34,559 bases of DNA, from NCBI GenBank assembly GCA_945786965.1, contig CALZFZ010000102.1:1-34559 (forward strand), written 5' to 3'. The notes under the pieces were generated by a model, which worked only from the letters and a program-made list of their open reading frames with translations, was not told the origin of the DNA and did no database searches. The position numbers were made by a program, and so were the translations under genes. The DNA comes from an uncultured Muriicola sp. Its GTDB lineage: Bacteria; Bacteroidota; Bacteroidia; Flavobacteriales; Flavobacteriaceae. Positions within the stretch are counted from its first letter, which is position 1; each line of letters begins with the position of its first letter. This document shows, one piece after another, positions 22,305 through 31,447 of the stretch.

Positions 22305-23657
22305 ATGTCCAAAGACATTCGAATTAAAAAGGGATTAGACATTAACCTCGTAGGAGTCGCAGAACCTACTACTTCCAAAGCTGCTTTAAGCAACGTTTAC
22401 GCTTTAAATCTTAGAGATTTTCACGGACTTACGCCAAAAATGCTTTTAAAGGAAGGTGCAGAGGTTAAAGCTGGAGAAGGAATATTCTACAATAAGAATA
22501 ATGAGAAAATGTTATTTGTTTCCCCTGTAAGTGGAGAAATCATTGAGGTTGTCAGGGGAGCGCGCAGGAGAATCCTAACCATTAAAATACTCGCCGACAA
22601 AACTCAGGAACAGGTTTCACATAAACCGCTCGACCTGAATAAGACCTCTCCAGACGAGATTAAAAATTTCTTGCTTAAAACAGGATGTTGGCCTTTTATA
22701 AAGCAACGGCCGTATGATATAATTGCTGATCCTGATACCACTCCCAAGGCTATTTTTATCTCAGGGTACAATACGGCTCCCCTGGCGGCAGACGTGGATT
22801 ATGTGTTGCAAGGGAAAGAGAAAGAGATACAAGCGGCATTGGACGCTCTTGGTGCGTTAACCCCGGGAAAGGTACATGTTTCGATAGGCAAAAACGGTAA
22901 TTCCCCACTTTCATCTATGCAGGGGATTGAACTGCATAAAGTTTCCGGACCCCACCCTGCAGGACTTGTTGGAACACAGATCAATAAAATAGACCCTATA
23001 AACAAAGGAGAACTTGTATGGACCATTGCTCCTCAGGATCTAATAATAATCGGTGAGACCTTACAAACGGGGAAGTTTAATGCTGAGCGACTTGTGGCAT
23101 TGGCAGGTTCGTATATCAAAAAACCACACTACTACAAAACAAAAATAGGAGCCGAAATCTCAACATTCTTATATGCCAGCGGGGTCAATGAGGGTAGGTT
23201 TAGGTTAATAAATGGAGATGTGTTAACAGGGTCCAAAGTTCGCCCGGATGGATTTTTAGGATTTTACAATTCTACGGTAACTGCCATACCGGAAGGGGAC
23301 GACTACGAACTTTTTGGATGGAACAAACCTGTTTTTGATAAGGTATCTACAACCCGTGCCCTTACATTTTCCTGGTTACGGCCCAAAAAGAAATACGATC
23401 TTAATACCAATACTAATGGAGAACACAGGGCTTTTGTAGTCACCGGACAATACGAAGAAGTATTCCCGCTAGACATATATCCATTACAGCTATTAAAAGC
23501 ATGTATGGTTCAGGACTTGGATGAGATGGAACAGTTAGGTCTGTATGAAGTGATCCCTGAAGATTTTTCACTAACCGAATTTATTTGCATTTCCAAACAA
23601 CCTCACCAACAAATTATCAGAGAAGGATTGGATCTGCTACATAAAGAAATAGGATAA
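22305..23657 (+). CDS. nqrA: Na+-translocating NADH:quinone reductase subunit A
   Basis: NqrA is the cytoplasmic, membrane-associated subunit of the six-subunit Na+ pump that oxidises NADH, reduces quinone and exports Na+. The 450 residues have the usual start IRIKKGLDINLVGVAEP and no membrane segments. KEGAEVKAGEGIFYNK (about 44-59) resembles a biotinyl/lipoyl-like fold, and the middle part is related to RnfC but lacks its ferredoxin clusters. It is the first gene of a tightly spaced operon, 2 bases before nqrB. Confidence 0.97.
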   Translation: MSKDIRIKKGLDINLVGVAEPTTSKAALSNVYALNLRDFHGLTPKMLLKEGAEVKAGEGIFYNKNNEKMLFVSPVSGEIIEVVRGARRRILTIKILADKTQEQVSHKPLDLNKTSPDEIKNFLLKTGCWPFIKQRPYDIIADPDTTPKAIFISGYNTAPLAADVDYVLQGKEKEIQAALDALGALTPGKVHVSIGKNGNSPLSSMQGIELHKVSGPHPAGLVGTQINKIDPINKGELVWTIAPQDLIIIGETLQTGKFNAERLVALAGSYIKKPHYYKTKIGAEISTFLYASGVNEGRFRLINGDVLTGSKVRPDGFLGFYNSTVTAIPEGDDYELFGWNKPVFDKVSTTRALTFSWLRPKKKYDLNTNTNGEHRAFVVTGQYEEVFPLDIYPLQLLKACMVQDLDEMEQLGLYEVIPEDFSLTEFICISKQPHQQIIREGLDLLHKEIG

Positions 23658-23659
23658 AG

Positions 23660-24934
23660 ATGAGCAACAAAAGATTAACGTTTAAGAAAAGACTCCATAT
23701 TCTAAAGCATCGTTACAGGGATAAAAAATTAGCTCCTGCTTTTAATGCTTTTCATACCTTTTTATTCACTCCGGATGAGACAACGCATTCGGGTAGTCAT
23801 ATCCGTGGTGCTGATGATCTAAAGAGAACCATGAACACAGTGATCATGGCGTTGATCCCTGTCTTATTGTTTTCTATGTTCAATGCCGGTTTCCAGTATT
23901 ACTCAGCCGTGAATGGCAGGCCTGAAGATTTTTCAGTTTTGGAACATTTTCTTACCTGGGATAATTTTTGGATTGGGATTATAAAGGTTTTACCACTTGT
24001 TGTTGTGTCTTACGGTGTTGGATTACTGGTCGAATTTATTTTTGCAGTTATCAAAGGCCATGAAGTAGAAGAAGGTTACCTGGTAACCGGGATGTTGGTG
24101 CCATTGATCGTTCCTATTGATACTCCTTTATGGATGTTAGCCGTAGCAATTGTTTTTGGAGTTGTTATTGGTAAGGAAGTATTTGGCGGAACGGGGATGA
24201 ATATTTTAAACCCTGCCTTAACCATTCGGGCATTTTTATTTTTCGCATATCCCACCTGGATGACAGGCGACAAAGTTTGGGTACATGAGGCGGTAGAACT
24301 AGCCGGGACACCCGATGCCATTTCCGGAGAAACAATCTTAGGCTATTTGGCACAAAACAATGCCAGTGAATTTTCATACAGTGTATCCGATATGTTCTTT
24401 GGATTTATTCCCGGATCTGTTGGGGAAACCTCTGCATTCTTGATATTATTGGGAGGTCTCTTTCTGATATTCAGTAAAATAGCAAGCTGGCGGATCATGG
24501 TAAGCGCCGTTATAGGGTCTTTGGTTATGGGACTTATTTTTAATGGAGTAGCAGATGCAGGATGGATCAGCGAGACCAGTAATTTTTATGGTTTGATGAG
24601 TTTCGATTTCTGGAAACATTTAATAGTAGGAGGGCTGGCCTTTGGAATTGTGTACATGGCCACCGACCCGGTTACCGGATCCCAGACCAATAAGGGGAAA
24701 TGGATCTATGGATTCCTGATTGGATTTATTTCTGTTATGATCCGTGTTTTCAATCCGGCGTATCCTGAAGGTGTATTCCTGGCAATCTTACTTATGAATG
24801 TTTTTGCGCCTACTATAGATCATTACGTAGTGCGAGGAAATATTAGAAAACGTATGAAACGACTTAAAAATGCTGTGATCCTTCCTAAGGAAACGAAAGA
24901 ACAAAAAGAGCAGCTAAAAGTTGAAACAATTTAA
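23660..24934 (+). CDS. nqrB: Na+-translocating NADH:quinone reductase subunit B
   Basis: NqrB is the large membrane subunit that carries covalent FMN and riboflavin and forms the main Na+ path. The 424 residues include about ten hydrophobic segments. The stretch FIPGSVGETSAFLILLGG (249-266) is where the family's FMN-bearing Thr is expected, most likely T257; that residue choice is inference. EVFGGTGMNILNPALTIRAF (173-192) is also strongly conserved. ApbE, encoded about 4 kb downstream, would attach the FMN. The gene starts 2 bases after nqrA. Confidence 0.97.
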   Translation: MSNKRLTFKKRLHILKHRYRDKKLAPAFNAFHTFLFTPDETTHSGSHIRGADDLKRTMNTVIMALIPVLLFSMFNAGFQYYSAVNGRPEDFSVLEHFLTWDNFWIGIIKVLPLVVVSYGVGLLVEFIFAVIKGHEVEEGYLVTGMLVPLIVPIDTPLWMLAVAIVFGVVIGKEVFGGTGMNILNPALTIRAFLFFAYPTWMTGDKVWVHEAVELAGTPDAISGETILGYLAQNNASEFSYSVSDMFFGFIPGSVGETSAFLILLGGLFLIFSKIASWRIMVSAVIGSLVMGLIFNGVADAGWISETSNFYGLMSFDFWKHLIVGGLAFGIVYMATDPVTGSQTNKGKWIYGFLIGFISVMIRVFNPAYPEGVFLAILLMNVFAPTIDHYVVRGNIRKRMKRLKNAVILPKETKEQKEQLKVETI

Positions 24935-24942
24935 TTATACCA

Positions 24943-25689
24943 ATGGATAAGGAAAAAAATCTTTATACAGTTCTTTTTGCAGGTGCCATGGTTATAGTGG
25001 TAGGTACTATTTTGGCCTATCTGGCATCTGCCCTGAGCGCAAGAATCAAGGAGAATGAAAGGTTCGAGAAACAACAGAACATTTTGTACGCCATGGGCGT
25101 AAACGAGAATGAGGGTGACGGCAGTGTAGATTTTATCCCTACGGATAGGGTTGAGCAGGAATTCACTAGTTACATAACAGATCAGCTGGTAATTGAGGGG
25201 GATAAGATCACAAAGGACGATCAGGCATACCTGATCGATATAAAAAAGCAGTTAGATATTCTCAAGAATGGAGAAACGCCTAAGTTACCTGTTTTTATAG
25301 GGGAGAAGGATGGAGAAAAATTCTATATCATTCCAATGTACGGAAAAGGGCTTTGGGATGCCATTTGGGGATTTATGGCCCTCGATGAAGATATGACAGT
25401 TAAGGGTGTATTTTTCGATCACAAAGCGGAAACTCCCGGTCTGGGGGCTAATATAAAACAGCGCTACTTTATGGACGATTTTAAAGGAGAGTCCATTTTA
25501 GCCGGTACGCAATATGCAGGTATAAAAGTAGCCAAGGGAAATAATGACCCGGTGAACACCATTAAGGACGACAATGAAGTGGATGCCCTGGCAGGTGCAA
25601 CCATTACCGGTAATGGGGTATCGTCGATGATCTCTAAGACAGTGAATCTCTATAAAGATTATTTTGAAACATTAAGAAATAAAGAATAA
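24943..25689 (+). CDS. nqrC: Na+-translocating NADH:quinone reductase subunit C
   Basis: NqrC has one N-terminal membrane segment (about 8-29) and a periplasmic FMN domain. The flavinylation motif DALAGAT is at 214-220, so the FMN would be bound by phosphoester to T220; the usual consensus has Ser or Thr where this has A217. The acceptor Thr is intact. Length (248) is normal. The gene lies 8 bases after nqrB and 1 base before nqrD. Confidence 0.97.
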   Translation: MDKEKNLYTVLFAGAMVIVVGTILAYLASALSARIKENERFEKQQNILYAMGVNENEGDGSVDFIPTDRVEQEFTSYITDQLVIEGDKITKDDQAYLIDIKKQLDILKNGETPKLPVFIGEKDGEKFYIIPMYGKGLWDAIWGFMALDEDMTVKGVFFDHKAETPGLGANIKQRYFMDDFKGESILAGTQYAGIKVAKGNNDPVNTIKDDNEVDALAGATITGNGVSSMISKTVNLYKDYFETLRNKE

Positions 25690-25690
25690 T

Positions 25691-26338
25691 ATGGCACTAC
25701 TTTCAAAAAAGGATGCAAACTTAATATTAGATCCACTAGCAGATAACAACCCTATTACCATTCAGGTATTGGGAATTTGTTCGGCCCTGGCGATTACCGC
25801 TGAATTGAAAGCGTCTATTGTAATGGCCTTGTCGGTTATTTTCGTACTGGGCCTTGGAAATGTGGTGATCTCATTAATGCGTAATATCATCCCTTCTAAG
25901 ATCAGGATTATTGTTCAACTTGTGGTAGTGGCCGCTTTAGTTATCGTTGTTGATCAGGTTCTTAAAGCATTTGCCTATCAGTTGAGTAAAACCCTGGCGG
26001 TCTTTGTAGGCTTAATTATAACGAATTGTATCATCATGGGTCGTTTCGAAGCATTTGCCTTAGGAAATGGGGTAAAGCGCTCGTTTCTTGATGGAATTGG
26101 AAATGCAGCTGGATATGGAATAATTTTGATTATCGTAGGGTTTTTCAGGGAATTACTTGGATCCGGAACCCTTTTGGGCTTTGCAGTCCTTGGAGACCCG
26201 ATAGCAAAAACAGGACTGTATTCTTTTGGGTACGAAAACAACGGCTTTATGCTTTTATCTCCCATGGCCTTAATTGTGGTGGGGTTATTGATTTGGGTAC
26301 AGCGTTCCCGTAACAACGCATTGATCGAGGAAAACTAG
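25691..26338 (+). CDS. nqrD: Na+-translocating NADH:quinone reductase subunit D
   Basis: NqrD is a six-helix membrane subunit; with NqrE it holds an iron centre between buried Cys residues. The 215 residues include C30 in LGICSALAIT and C113 in ITNCIIMGR, matching the Cys pair of the Vibrio protein. The GNAAGYGIILIIVGFFRELLGSG stretch is conserved in the NqrD/RnfE family. It starts 1 base after nqrC and ends 21 bases before nqrE. Confidence 0.97.
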   Translation: MALLSKKDANLILDPLADNNPITIQVLGICSALAITAELKASIVMALSVIFVLGLGNVVISLMRNIIPSKIRIIVQLVVVAALVIVVDQVLKAFAYQLSKTLAVFVGLIITNCIIMGRFEAFALGNGVKRSFLDGIGNAAGYGIILIIVGFFRELLGSGTLLGFAVLGDPIAKTGLYSFGYENNGFMLLSPMALIVVGLLIWVQRSRNNALIEEN

Positions 26339-26359
26339 AATAGCTTTTAAACAAGAATT

Positions 26360-27106
26360 ATGTTAGAGCACATAGAATTATTTTTCAAGTCTATTTTTAT
26401 AGATAATATGGTATTCGCCACATTTTTGGGAATGTGTTCCTATCTGGCGGTATCGAAAAAAGTGACCACGGCTGTGGGCTTGGGTGCAGCGGTTATATTT
26501 GTACTCGCCGTTACGGTTCCCCTTAACTGGTTATTAGATCAGTATTTATTGCGCGATGGCGCTTTGGCATGGTTGGGACCAGAATATGCCGATTATAATT
26601 TAAGTTTCTTATCGTTTATCCTCTTTATTGCCACCATCGCAACTATGGTGCAATTGGTCGAAATAGTGGTGGAGAAGTTTTCACCGGCACTTTATAATTC
26701 ACTGGGAATTTTTCTCCCATTGATCGCAGTTAATTGTGCCATTTTAGGAGGCTCTTTATTTATGCAAGCTCGTGAAATCCCATCTTTGGGACTCGCTTTC
26801 AATTATGGTCTGAGTTCAGGGATCGGATGGTTTTTGGCGATTTTCGCGATCGCAGCCATTAGAGAGAAAATACGATATTCCAATGTTCCTCCACCATTAC
26901 GCGGACTGGGGATTACATTTATTATCACAGGACTTATGGCTATTGGGTTTATGAGTTTTGGTGGCATGCTTACAGGCGGAGATGAAGCACCTGTAGTTCC
27001 CGAACCAACCACCGTTCAAAAAACCGAAAAAGAAGAATTAAAATTGGATAAAGAGCAGGAAGAAACCGCGGTCTCTTTTAACTCAATAACAAAAGAAAAA
27101 GAATGA
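26360..27106 (+). CDS. nqrE: Na+-translocating NADH:quinone reductase subunit E with acidic C-terminal tail
   Basis: NqrE is the inverted membrane partner of NqrD. C26 in FLGMCSYLA and C126 in VNCAILGG are the expected iron ligands. The family's usual end comes at MAIGFMSF (193-200); Vibrio NqrE has about 198 residues. Here the chain continues to 248 with a Pro- and charge-rich tail containing DEAPVVPEPTTVQKTEKEE. A short insertion (GPEYADYN, 73-80) precedes the third helix. The stop overlaps the nqrF start (ATGA, 4 bases), so the two are translationally coupled. The tail reads as real coding sequence in frame with no sign of frameshift. Confidence 0.96.
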   Translation: MLEHIELFFKSIFIDNMVFATFLGMCSYLAVSKKVTTAVGLGAAVIFVLAVTVPLNWLLDQYLLRDGALAWLGPEYADYNLSFLSFILFIATIATMVQLVEIVVEKFSPALYNSLGIFLPLIAVNCAILGGSLFMQAREIPSLGLAFNYGLSSGIGWFLAIFAIAAIREKIRYSNVPPPLRGLGITFIITGLMAIGFMSFGGMLTGGDEAPVVPEPTTVQKTEKEELKLDKEQEETAVSFNSITKEKE

Positions 27107-28410
27107 TATTAGCTACAAGTACATTAGGCACAATTCTGATTACTGTTGTTGCCTTTATGATTTTATTGCTACTGTTGGTTGCACTATTGCTCTTTACTAA
27201 AGAGAAATTGTCTCCTTCAGGACCTGTTACCATTACGATCAATGGTGAAAAGAAAATACAGGTAAGTTCAGGAAATTCGTTGTTGTCTACGCTGGGGAAC
27301 CAGAAGATATTTCTCCCATCGGCTTGTGGTGGTGGAGGTACCTGTATACAATGCGAATGCCACGTACTTGCTGGTGGAGGTGAAGCATTGCCTACTGAGA
27401 CTCCTCATTTTTCTAAAAAAGAATTGAATCATGGTGCCCGTCTGGCGTGTCAGGTGAAGGTTAAGCAAGACATGGAGATCACTATTCCGGAGGAAGTTTT
27501 CGGAATAAAGAAATGGGAAGGTACAGTAGTTCGTAACTATAATGTGGCCTCATTTATTAAAGAGTTTGTGGTTAAAATTCCGGAGGATATGAACTACAAG
27601 GCTGGGGGTTATATTCAAATAGAAATACCTCCCTGCCAGATCAAGTATTCGGACATTGATATTACTGCACACCCCGAAGAACATGAAACCCCGGATAAAT
27701 TTCAGACCGAGTGGGACAAGTTTAATCTTTGGCCGCTGGTAATGAAAAATAATGAAATAGTAGAACGAGCCTATTCCATGGCTTCTTACCCTGCAGAAGG
27801 CCGGGAGATCATGTTGAATGTAAGGATAGCAACACCTCCATGGGATCGTTCCAAGAATGGTTGGATGGATGTGAATCCCGGTGTGGCCTCGTCCTATATT
27901 TTCGCTCAGAAACCGGGTGATAAGGTTACCATTTCTGGTCCTTACGGTGAGTTCTTTATAAACGAATCGGATTCTGAAATGCTGTATGTAGGTGGTGGTG
28001 CCGGTATGGCTCCAATGCGGTCGCATTTATACCATCTTTTTAAAACGTTAAAAACGAATAGAAAGGTTTCCTATTGGTATGGAGGACGTTCCAAACGAGA
28101 ATTGTTTTATATAGACCATTTTAAAAAATTGGAAGCGGAATTTCCAAATTTCAAATTCTATATGGCGCTATCTGAACCACAGGAAGTCGATAATTGGAAG
28201 GTTAAAGAAGATCTGGACGCCCCTGGAGACGGTTTTGTTGGGTTTATTCATAATTGTGTGATCGATAACTATCTTAGTAAACATGAGTCTCCTGAAGATA
28301 TTGAATTGTATTTCTGTGGACCTCCATTGATGAACAAAGCTGTTCAAAAAATGGGCGAGGATTACGGTATCCCGGATGAACATATAAGATTCGATGACTT
28401 CGGTGGATAA
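27103..28410 (+). CDS. nqrF: Na+-translocating NADH:quinone reductase subunit F
   Basis: NqrF is the NADH-oxidising entry subunit with FAD and a 2Fe-2S cluster. The 435 residues hold one N-terminal membrane segment (about 8-31), a ferredoxin domain with cluster Cys C75, C81, C84 and C116 (SACGGGGTCIQCEC and ARLACQV), an FAD domain with RAYSMASYP, and an NADH domain with YVGGGAGMAPMRSHL. The chain ends EHIRFDDFGG, as expected for the family. Its start overlaps the nqrE stop by 4 bases. A strong terminator begins 21 bases after its stop and closes the operon. Confidence 0.98.
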   Translation: MILATSTLGTILITVVAFMILLLLLVALLLFTKEKLSPSGPVTITINGEKKIQVSSGNSLLSTLGNQKIFLPSACGGGGTCIQCECHVLAGGGEALPTETPHFSKKELNHGARLACQVKVKQDMEITIPEEVFGIKKWEGTVVRNYNVASFIKEFVVKIPEDMNYKAGGYIQIEIPPCQIKYSDIDITAHPEEHETPDKFQTEWDKFNLWPLVMKNNEIVERAYSMASYPAEGREIMLNVRIATPPWDRSKNGWMDVNPGVASSYIFAQKPGDKVTISGPYGEFFINESDSEMLYVGGGAGMAPMRSHLYHLFKTLKTNRKVSYWYGGRSKRELFYIDHFKKLEAEFPNFKFYMALSEPQEVDNWKVKEDLDAPGDGFVGFIHNCVIDNYLSKHESPEDIELYFCGPPLMNKAVQKMGEDYGIPDEHIRFDDFGG

Positions 28411-28431
28411 CCCTTTTCATAAGAATAATAG

Positions 28432-28463
28432 AAAAACCGATATCAATACATATCGGTTTTTTT
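28432..28463 (+). terminator. Intrinsic terminator of the nqr operon
   Basis: A perfect 12-bp stem (AAAAACCGATAT at 28432-28443 with 28450-28461) has a 6-base loop and a run of seven T (28457-28463). The next gene starts 15 bases later, so it depends on readthrough or a promoter I could not identify. Confidence 0.9.
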
Positions 28464-28478
28464 GATATTGTATGTGAT

Positions 28479-28835
28479 ATGATAGCACTTACTGAACAGG
28501 AATTACACAATCTGGCCATGAATATCGTTGGCAGGGAGCTGGAATCTAGTGGGTATGAATTTATGGCGGTTAACAGCAAGCCTAAACGGAATCCACAATT
28601 TGTTTGTCTGAAGGACAAGCAATTGCATTTTATTGTGGTCAGAAATGTAGTATATCCAGATGATCCCAGATCTTATGACAGGGAATTGTTATCAAAAGTT
28701 AAGGAACAGGCTTTTAAGTTCGAGGCGAAGACCTTTTATGCCGGAGTTGGCCTTTCCAATGCTATTGATCAAAACCTTCCTGTGTACCTTAACGAAAAAT
28801 ACATTGTAGATTATGAAGGCCTTATTGAAATTTAG
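28479..28835 (+). CDS. Small conserved-looking protein of unknown function between nqrF and apbE
   Basis: The 118-residue protein has no signal peptide or membrane segment, so it is cytoplasmic. I recall similar flavobacterial proteins being labelled as NADH-quinone reductase subunit F, but it has no Cys cluster, flavin or NADH motif, so that label is not supported. The pattern of LESSGYEFMAVN, then QFVCLKDKQLHFIVVRNVVY, then EQAFKFEAKTFYAGVGL resembles the alpha-beta order of PD-(D/E)XK-like folds without their catalytic residues; this is a weak impression. Its last 23 bases overlap the apbE start in another frame, so the two are translationally linked. Position suggests a role in Na+-NQR assembly or flavin insertion. 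Confidence 0.85.
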   Translation: MIALTEQELHNLAMNIVGRELESSGYEFMAVNSKPKRNPQFVCLKDKQLHFIVVRNVVYPDDPRSYDRELLSKVKEQAFKFEAKTFYAGVGLSNAIDQNLPVYLNEKYIVDYEGLIEI

Positions 28836-29844
28836 GAATACATTCCAGGTACTGGTAGTAGTGCTGCTATTTTTGTCGGCCTGTACAGGAGATCATTCCA
28901 CATGGGTGAGGAATACCAATGCAGGACCGGCTTTGGGTACCTCATATAGCATTATTTATTTAACAAAGGATTCTACCGATCTGCAGACCGGTATTGATTC
29001 AGTTTTTAATGCCGTGAATGCTTCTATGTCTACCTATATCCCCAATTCTGATATTTCAAGAATAAACGAAGGTGATACTTCGGTGCAGGTAGATCATATG
29101 TTTATTGAAGTACTTGCCATTTCCAAGGAGGTTTACCATAATACGGATGGTTATTTTGATCCCACAGTAGGAATCCTGGTTAATGCCTGGGGATTCGGCC
29201 CAGAGGCCGGAATTCAAATGGACAGTGCTTATGTTAACAGTTTACTTCACTATGTGGGCCTTGATAAAGTAAGTTTAACCCAAGATAACAGGATACTAAA
29301 AGAGCAAGCCGAAATTCAACTCGATTTCAATGCTATTGCCAAAGGGTATGCCATAGACATGTTGGCTTCTTATCTGGATACGCAGGGGATACAGAACTAC
29401 CTCGTAGAAGTAGGGGGTGAGATCGTAACCAAAGGCGAAAACAGGGTAAAGCAAAAAATGTGGGTTGTAGGCGTAGATGACCCACAGGTAGAATTGGGCA
29501 GGCAGCTCAAGATTACCTTGAATCTTAAGGACAAAGCCCTTGCATCTTCCGGAAATTACAGGAAATTCCGGATCGATTCGCTTACCGGGGAAAAATACGT
29601 CCATACCATTGATCCAAAAACTGGTTTTACCAAAAATTCAAATATCCTGGCTGCCACAGTTGTTGCCGAGACATGTGCCATGGCCGATGCCTATGCCACG
29701 GCTTTTATGGCCATGGATTTACCTAATTCCATAGCCTTATTGGAACAGCAAAAGGATCTTGAAGGCTATATAATTTATTTGGATGCGGAAGGACAGGCAA
29801 CTGAGTTTATGACCGAAGGCTTCAAAAAGCTGGTCAATAAATAA
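28813..29844 (+). CDS. apbE: FAD:protein FMN transferase ApbE (lipoprotein)
   Basis: ApbE moves FMN from FAD to a Thr of NqrB, NqrC and related proteins on the outer face of the inner membrane. The 343 residues start with a signal peptide ending in lipobox LSAC (Cys24). Family motifs follow: GTSYSIIY, DGYFDPTVGILVNAWGFG, DFNAIAKGYAIDML, YLVEVGGEI, HTIDPKTG, and the metal-binding AETCAMADAYATA. Its place 402 bases after nqrF matches its job. It overlaps the preceding gene by 23 bases, and its stop codon abuts the stop of the convergent methyltransferase gene. Confidence 0.96.
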   Translation: MKALLKFRNTFQVLVVVLLFLSACTGDHSTWVRNTNAGPALGTSYSIIYLTKDSTDLQTGIDSVFNAVNASMSTYIPNSDISRINEGDTSVQVDHMFIEVLAISKEVYHNTDGYFDPTVGILVNAWGFGPEAGIQMDSAYVNSLLHYVGLDKVSLTQDNRILKEQAEIQLDFNAIAKGYAIDMLASYLDTQGIQNYLVEVGGEIVTKGENRVKQKMWVVGVDDPQVELGRQLKITLNLKDKALASSGNYRKFRIDSLTGEKYVHTIDPKTGFTKNSNILAATVVAETCAMADAYATAFMAMDLPNSIALLEQQKDLEGYIIYLDAEGQATEFMTEGFKKLVNK

Positions 29845-30612
29845 TCACACTTTAGATACCAGAGGAATGATCTCTCTTTTAGCCAACCGATAGGTATCTA
29901 TCGCTTCGTTGCTCAATTGGGCCGTATAAGCAACCTCGTTGACTTTAAATCCCACACTGCGCAACTTGTCAAAATAATCGCGCCCGTATATGCGTACATG
30001 GTCGTATTGACCAAAGATACGAGCCCGTTCTTTTTTGTCAGTGATCGTAGAATCTTCAAACGTCTTTTCCCTATTCAGATCTTGGGGTATCTGGAATATT
30101 CCCCATCCTCCGGGTTTTAAAATTCGAAACAATTCGGCCATAGCCTTTTTGTCATCAGGAATATGTTCGAGGACATGATTGCATAATAGCACATCATACG
30201 TATTATCCTCAAAAGGAAGGTTACAAATGTCTGCTTTCACATCGGCCAGGGGGGAATTAAGATCTGTGGTGGTGTAATCCAGATTTTCAAGTTTCCTAAA
30301 CCTTTTATAAAAGGCCTGTTCGGGAGCAAAGTGTAATACTTTGTGTTGCTTTGTGAAAAAGTTGGTTTCATTTTGGAGATATAGCCACAACAGTCTGTGC
30401 CGTTCCAGGGAAAGGGTAGAAGGGGACAGGACATTCTCTCGTGGATTTTCGTATCCGTAAGGTAAAAATCGCCTGAATTGTCTACCGTCAATGGGATCCG
30501 TATACCGTTTACCACTTAAAAAAAGGGCTAGCAAAGGTCTGGCCAGATAACTCAATTTTATTAGAAATGGTCTGGGGAAAACTTTGAGTATGTACTTAAA
30601 AATTCGTTTCAC
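29845..30612 (-). CDS. Class I SAM-dependent methyltransferase, unusual motif I
   Basis: The 255-residue protein has a Methyltransf_11-like domain at about 90-200. In place of the usual Gly-rich motif I it has VLHFAPEQAFYKRF (about 91-104). The acidic end of strand 2 (TTTDLNSP), the strand 4 segment YDVLLCNHVLEHIPD and the ELFRILKPGGWGIFQIP strand-5 region are normal. The N-terminus is basic and hydrophobic (residues 1-35), which may anchor it at the membrane. The substrate is unknown. It follows map by 16 bases and is the last gene of a gpmI-map run; no terminator separates it from convergent apbE. Confidence 0.88.
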   Translation of the reverse strand: MKRIFKYILKVFPRPFLIKLSYLARPLLALFLSGKRYTDPIDGRQFRRFLPYGYENPRENVLSPSTLSLERHRLLWLYLQNETNFFTKQHKVLHFAPEQAFYKRFRKLENLDYTTTDLNSPLADVKADICNLPFEDNTYDVLLCNHVLEHIPDDKKAMAELFRILKPGGWGIFQIPQDLNREKTFEDSTITDKKERARIFGQYDHVRIYGRDYFDKLRSVGFKVNEVAYTAQLSNEAIDTYRLAKREIIPLVSKV

Positions 30613-30628
30613 AAGGATTCCCCCTAAA

Positions 30629-31447
30629 TTATAATTGTGGTTTTTTTACCCGGAATTCTTCTTCTTCATCCGATACAATTCCAAGGGCTTCATATATGTA
30701 TTGAAAGGTAGAGAGCAATTCCGGTTTGCCGTTCACCAGGGCCACGTTGTGTTCAAAATGCGCACTGGGTTTACCATCTGCTGTCAGGATGGTCCAACCG
30801 TCCTTTAACTGTCGTATTCTACGGGTTCCCATGTTGATCATAGGTTCTATTGCTACCACCATACCCTCGACAAACTTTTTACCACGGCCACGTTTACCAT
30901 AATTGGGCATTTCCGGAGCTTCATGTAGTTTTTTACCCAAACCATGTCCTACTAATTCACGAACAATGCCATAGCCTTGGGCTTCGCAATAGTGTTGAAT
31001 GGCATAGCCCACATCGCCCACACGATTCCCCAATTTAAATTCACGGATCCCCACATAAAGGGATTCCTTGGATATTTTCAGTAGTTTTTTCGTTTCGGGA
31101 GCTACATCGCCTACTTCAAAAGTATAGGCGTGATCACCATAAAATCCATTTTTAAGGGATCCACAATCTACAGAGAGGATGTCTCCTTCTTTTAAAGGTT
31201 CATTGTTGGGGATTCCATGCACCACCTGAGCATTTGGGCTTAAGTTTAACGTATTTGGAAAATCGTACATCCCAAGGAAACCGGGTTCTGCACCATGATC
31301 CCTAATGAACGCTTCTGCCAATTCATCCAAATACAATCCGGTTACCCCCGGTTTAATCTCCGAGGCCAGCATCCCCAGGGTTTTAGAGACTATCAGGGCG
31401 CTTTCGCGTATTAATTCTATTTCTTCAGCCGATTTAATATGGATCAT
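30629..31447 (-). CDS. map: Type I methionine aminopeptidase
   Basis: Map removes the initiator Met from new proteins when the second residue is small. The 272 residues show every metal ligand at the family positions: D94 and D105 (VDCGSLKNGFYGDHA), H168 (VGHGLGKKLHEAP), E201 (AIEPMIN) and E232 (FEHNVALV), plus substrate His H77 in VVHGIPNN. A charged C-terminal tail (DEEEEFRVKKPQL) follows the catalytic domain. It lies 19 bases after gpmI and 16 before the methyltransferase gene, and is probably cotranscribed with both. Confidence 0.97.
   Translation of the reverse strand: MIHIKSAEEIELIRESALIVSKTLGMLASEIKPGVTGLYLDELAEAFIRDHGAEPGFLGMYDFPNTLNLSPNAQVVHGIPNNEPLKEGDILSVDCGSLKNGFYGDHAYTFEVGDVAPETKKLLKISKESLYVGIREFKLGNRVGDVGYAIQHYCEAQGYGIVRELVGHGLGKKLHEAPEMPNYGKRGRGKKFVEGMVVAIEPMINMGTRRIRQLKDGWTILTADGKPSAHFEHNVALVNGKPELLSTFQYIYEALGIVSDEEEEFRVKKPQL

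Follow-up and report, generated by a model that had tools for sequence, protein, structure and literature searches.

An unnamed Flavobacteriales protein family with a predicted restriction-endonuclease-like fold is linked to Na+-NQR and ApbE

The short open reading frame between nqrF and apbE in an uncultured Muriicola sp. encodes a member of a so far unnamed protein family of Flavobacteriales (the order being assigned from named records), and the link of this family to Nqr and ApbE is real. This association was observed directly in the genomes compared here; the mechanism behind it we infer. As the best single reading, which we hold with less than even confidence, the 118-aa protein would assist Nqr maturation in Flavobacteriales from the cytoplasm, as an accessory without enzymatic activity. 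The window, i.e. the whole stretch of 34,559 nucleotides that was analysed, contains the following features.

22305..27106, + strand: nqrA, nqrB, nqrC, nqrD and nqrE in this order, upstream of nqrF
22305-23657, + strand: nqrA, match to the nqrA model
23660-24934, + strand: nqrB, match to the nqrB model
24943-25689, + strand: nqrC, assigned by eye and from its position; operons of relatives have matching ORFs
25691-26338, + strand: nqrD, assigned by eye and from its position; operons of relatives have matching ORFs
26360-27106, + strand: nqrE, assigned by eye and from its position; operons of relatives have matching ORFs
27103..28410, + strand: nqrF, TIGR01941 (E 3e-171)
28429..28464, + strand: terminator-like hairpin of 15 pairs followed by a T run, between nqrF and the 118-aa ORF
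28479..28835, + strand: accessory ORF (the subject of this study), 118 aa, predicted restriction-endonuclease-like fold with a degenerate active site
28813..29844, + strand: apbE, FAD:protein FMN transferase, predicted lipoprotein, PF02424 (E 5.4e-79), LSAC lipobox read by eye

The 118-aa ORF runs from ATG to TAG and starts 68 nt past the end of the nqrF ORF. An earlier note on this DNA had described a 118-residue protein between nqrF and apbE whose gene end and the apbE start share 23 bases, and both statements agree with our annotation, in which the apbE ATG lies at 28813. Short proteins at such a position are often labelled NqrF in databases. The note had found none of the NqrF motifs, and indeed the protein neither matched the NqrF model TIGR01941 nor contained Fer2, FAD or NAD domains. 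The terminator-like hairpin had been overlooked. Composition gave a GRAVY of -0.28 and a predicted pI of 5.4, and no long hydrophobic stretch was seen by eye; the protein is therefore probably cytoplasmic, as the note had stated, although this localisation is a prediction from composition. Downstream, genes judged by eye to be methyltransferase-like and methionine aminopeptidase-like lie convergent to apbE (29845-31447), and many relatives have the same pair in this convergent arrangement, including loci with nqr located elsewhere.

Relatives, profile matches and low dN/dS confirm that the 118-aa gene is real and not a chance ORF. A scan of named genome contigs revealed 25 relatives with 57-81% identity. 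The record titles of 24 of these name a genus, the family or 'Flavobacteria', the genera being presumably all Flavobacteriaceae, and one title reads Bacteroidia only; Eudoraea, the nearest relative, and Dokdonia were placed in Flavobacteriales on checking. The gene is under purifying selection: dN/dS was 0.03-0.11 in the five of 11 pairs with unsaturated synonymous sites, and dN was 0.14-0.26 in the remaining six, in which synonymous sites were saturated. Across 44 diverse relatives, with identities down to 37%, 13 columns were invariant. H10, M14, G18, E27, S33, P39, Q40, F51 and V54 were identical in 44/44, and E8 was (nearly) invariant.

Sequence searches did not connect the family to any described one. 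The 118-aa protein had no match among Pfam, NCBIfam, PHROGs and PADLOC models or in plasmid records, and kinship to phage or defence families was rejected on the PHROGs and PADLOC results. Its single hit among PDB sequences (E 1.6) was not significant, and a profile of the 44 relatives reached E 0.44 against the PDB at best, with an unrelated inhibitor. Weak Pfam matches were scattered over a few of the 44 relatives, with 22 families reached by any member at E 5. The best was Peptidase_C39 (E 0.0012, two members), and IL12 was matched by eight members (best E 0.011); both were taken as chance.

The distribution of the gene follows that of nqr in one direction. In a sample of the window's family, a profile search detected the 118-aa gene in 334 of 397 genomes, and nqrF (called at E 1e-90 or better) was present in 384. 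In the order sample, an even draw of 196 genomes, the gene occurred in 30 genomes and nqrF in 113. The earlier note had proposed a Bacteroidota-specific factor, which is too wide: matches in the class samples were confined to the window's family (3/247 with a single-sequence search, 3/198 with the profile), and those in the order sample to this family and five more. Cross-tabulation gave 330 family genomes with both genes, 4 with the 118-aa gene only, 54 with nqrF only and 9 with neither (Fisher p 1.6e-5). In the order sample the respective numbers were 28, 2, 85 and 81 (Fisher p 5.3e-6). The crossing was done by hand, with unlisted genomes sorted by elimination from printed lists, and the p values do not describe independent trials, given the relatedness of the genomes and the overlap between the two samples.

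Hence nqrF accompanied the gene in 330/334 family and 28/30 order carriers, and the co-occurrence count that the earlier note had suggested as a check shows a near-strict dependence on nqr. Five of the six carriers without nqrF hold nqrA and/or nqrB (G402, G494, G628, G707, G727). These additional checks covered only the six carriers, G000 and, for nqrA, G568. The one exception is G382, which is 99% complete and keeps the pair of 118-aa gene and apbE (L140:9366-10729), and in which nqrA, nqrB and nqrF were not found. The frequent presence without nqr that the note had named as contrary evidence was thus not observed. The absence of nqr from G382 may be a real loss or an assembly gap; G568, from the same genus, has nqrA and nqrF.

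In the opposite direction the dependence fails, as 54 of the 384 family genomes and 85 of the 113 order genomes with nqrF lack the gene. Genome incompleteness explains only part of these absences, because among the 329 good genomes of the family nqrF was found in 325 and the 118-aa gene in 295. The protein is not general to Nqr and no universal Nqr factor, and these genomes, together with G382, count against the accessory reading. When presence of the gene was mapped onto a tree of 79 NqrF proteins, eight changes were required, compared to a mean of 26.1 in shuffles, none of 500 being as low. Inheritance of the gene is block-wise, with either several losses or few gains, and genome counts therefore overstate the number of independent events.

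This clustering would also be expected of a house-keeping protein of the order that rides with apbE and owes its Nqr link to shared ancestry and loss. Such a role would agree with the presence of the gene in 295 of the 329 good family genomes, with its retention in G382 and with its different gene context in f81, f79 and g3. We consider it unlikely, in view of genus g2 and family f2. In genus g2, two of 17 order-sample genomes carry the gene and both have nqrF, one (G744) has nqrF only and 14 have neither (Fisher p 0.022). In family f2, of which at least two other genomes were sampled, a single genome contains the gene or nqrF, and it contains the two of them, approximately 85 kb apart. The accessory reading is favoured by the finding that nqrF lies directly upstream in only 9 of the 30 order carriers, so that co-occurrence does not result from linkage alone. 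G744 contains a complete nqrA-F-apbE operon without the 118-aa gene (L100:4296-11504). Its NqrF forms a long branch beside a genome of another family, a placement rated unsure by the tool, and the operon is a candidate for transfer.

The second association, a conserved contact with apbE, was evident from gene neighbourhoods. In the order sample, apbE was directly downstream of the gene in 17/30 carriers, and the 13 carriers with neither apbE nor nqrF adjoining belong to f81 (8), f79 (2) and f1 (3), a separation that counts against the accessory reading. Among 108 distinct loci, which had the best scores or were selected, after removal of duplicates, and were not drawn at random, apbE followed on the same strand within 400 nt in 91; three of the remaining 17 offer too little sequence. 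With apbE starts picked by rule (none was obtained for two of the 91 loci), the start overlapped the stop of the 118-aa gene in 61/91. The apbE linkage claimed in the earlier note persists without an adjoining nqrF: of 46 loci of this kind, 30 have apbE downstream, with an overlap in 16 of these 30. Away from apbE, the neighbours of the gene vary. In G134 and G562 (genus g3) it overlaps or abuts, on the downstream side, a DEAD-box RNA helicase gene, and five f81 nqr loci that could be read through the junction have apbE directly after nqrF with no 118-aa gene between.

The frequent overlap, also at loci without adjacent nqrF, would fit an escort or inhibitor that is made just ahead of ApbE and keeps the nascent enzyme inactive or export-competent until it leaves the cytoplasm. 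We regard this function as rather improbable. All 14 genus g2 genomes without nqrF and without the gene have ApbE, so ApbE alone does not bring the gene along; nqr-apbE operons without it exist, and f81 carriers have it away from apbE. The accessory reading meets a difficulty of its own here, since ApbE is exported and the two proteins cannot meet afterwards.

Two further features of these loci were recorded. The 118-aa ORF of L095 and that of L119, the two cases tested, are each immediately preceded by a DUF4846 (PF16138) gene with a one-base overlap, which in L095 lies between nqrF and the ORF (L095:3254-4117); L088, L090 and L120 have genes of similar length, judged by length alone, at this place. 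In addition, the NqrE of the window is extended at its C-terminus by a tail of approximately 45 residues that is rich in acids and bases. By length, full NqrE proteins form two classes, a long one of 237-266 aa (25/75) and a short one of 204-209 aa (50/75), and the extension was found in 22/40 carriers compared to 3/35 non-carriers (four partial rows dropped). As a partner of the 118-aa protein the long tail leans the right way, but it was rejected, as 18 carriers have the short form.

An AlphaFold2 model based on 26 relatives (mean pLDDT 95.3, pTM 0.86) predicts the elements H6-23, E27-31, E41-45, E48-58, H68-80 and E83-94, which is the alpha-beta-beta-beta-alpha-beta core of the PD-(D/E)XK fold. 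The closest structures in VIA-align were archaeal Hjc (1gef; Z 10.4, 92 residues, 2.1 A) and the splicing endonuclease chain 2zyz (Z 9.4). The assignment rests on this comparison and not on Foldseek, which by itself gave a best E of 1.6e-3 and nothing at E 0.001 or better. The earlier note had compared the order of elements to a PD-(D/E)XK fold that has lost its catalytic residues, and the predicted structure bears out the fold. The second half of that guess also appears correct. If residues are paired by element order, the acid of the PD motif corresponds to P39-Q40 in 44/44 relatives and the (D/E) to residue 53, which is always V, I, L or M, so that both acids seem to be missing. At the place of the lysine, residue 55 is K or R in 41/44 and Q or E in three. 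The protein may thus be described as a nuclease look-alike apparently without catalytic acids and is not filed as a nuclease. With E8 and E27 (nearly) invariant and residue 55 mostly basic, it may nevertheless retain some catalysis or have a different one.

Nucleic-acid enzymes being the closest folds, with the non-catalytic SEN15 (2gw6) also among the matches, the protein could be an RNA-binding regulator that has preserved the nucleic-acid binding of its fold and adjusts how efficiently apbE, nqr or other messages are translated or how stable they are. The two g3 genomes with the RNA helicase neighbour and the hairpin of the window, which ends 14 nt before the ATG, may be seen in the same light. 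We think this improbable, as the predicted pI does not suggest nucleic-acid binding, the neighbours vary once the gene leaves apbE, and the hairpin goes with nqrF. In a uniform scan, a hairpin followed nqrF in 55 of the 62 loci of relatives that have the gene next to nqrF, and at 46 of 72 nqrF ends where the gene lies elsewhere or is missing. Of 45 regions upstream of a gene without neighbouring nqrF, 9 contained one. Loci were selected as for the linkage counts, each of the five mononucleotide shuffles made per set had 0-4 hits, and the scan missed the hairpin of the window, so that the counts are low rather than high. A function as leader of the 118-aa gene was therefore rejected; because the hairpin tracks nqrF and not the gene, it marks where the nqr operon ends. 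Between hairpin and ATG there is hardly space for a promoter, and the gene would be reached by read-through at a reduced level.

In the accessory reading, the 118-aa protein would be a soluble, cytoplasmic, non-catalytic protein with a restriction-endonuclease-like fold that serves Na+-NQR biogenesis in one Bacteroidota order. It may provide a binding scaffold at a cytosolic face of the Nqr complex, or for an intermediate of its assembly, in coordination with flavinylation by ApbE across the membrane. Read-through of the hairpin would yield less of it than of Nqr, and coupled translation would produce it together with ApbE. It may further be speculated, although we find this rather doubtful, that a nuclease fold turned into an Nqr assembly factor times or proofreads assembly from the cytoplasm while ApbE attaches FMN on the opposite side, a leaky terminator supplying limited amounts of it along with ApbE. 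If so, this would be one more dead nuclease fold reused as a scaffold.

Our search of the literature on Na+-NQR and apbE in Flavobacteriaceae, outside of which most subscription papers lay, found no paper on such a protein. It is not mentioned in the accessible parts of PMC8238504, PMC4014512 and PMC12052999, and PMC6560451 contains none of the four terms sought. As for Na+-NQR assembly outside Vibrio, ApbE is known, and our search of 30 genomes, which had no positive control, did not detect NqrM. The 118-aa protein, strictly conserved, unnamed, almost never without Nqr and usually next to apbE, is a direct experimental candidate in common marine bacteria.

Conserved cysteines are a feature of NqrM (PF04400), the Nqr assembly factor of Vibrio, whereas the sole cysteine of the 118-aa protein, Cys43, is kept in 27/44 relatives. 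The two are alike as accessory genes downstream of nqr near apbE. According to the accessible part of PMC12174285, nqrM lies after nqr in Vibrio cholerae and NqrM is a small membrane-bound protein. In contrast, the 118-aa protein is predicted to be soluble, and neither it nor the 44 relatives matched PF04400. The earlier note had seen no nqrM-like protein here, and PF04400 was likewise matched in 0/30 genomes at E 0.1 (17 carriers and 13 non-carriers, including the window's own genome, which is 80% complete), with no positive control and hence unproven sensitivity: one of the tool's 14 control genomes matched, below the cut-off, and none is known to hold nqrM. This absence and the gene position might suggest a functional replacement of NqrM that helps to insert the membrane 2Fe-2S centre. 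We consider that highly improbable, as NqrM was equally not found in the 13 Nqr genomes lacking the 118-aa gene (under the same search), the cysteine is not conserved and no membrane segment was seen; a stand-in for NqrM is not indicated on this evidence.

UPF0102/YraN (PF02021), a PD-(D/E)XK protein present in 12/13 relatives' genomes, resembles the 118-aa protein in element order and in a short local alignment. Kinship by sequence was not supported: PF02021 was not among the 22 families matched by any of the 44 members at E 5, and the 118-aa protein lacks the E-V-K and E-I-D motifs found in YraN. A profile-profile comparison, with only three sequences on the YraN side, gave an hhalign probability of 3.5%. 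SEN15 is a non-catalytic subunit of the tRNA splicing endonuclease. It has the same general fold (Z 6.6, a range called common by the tool) but works in a tRNA-cutting complex, and no sequence similarity to the 118-aa protein was seen. Hjc, for which kinship by sequence was rejected (best PDB profile hit E 0.44), differs at the places of its presumed active-site acid pair, which in the 118-aa family are Q40 and V/I/L/M53, and shares with the predicted model the core fold over residues 6-118.
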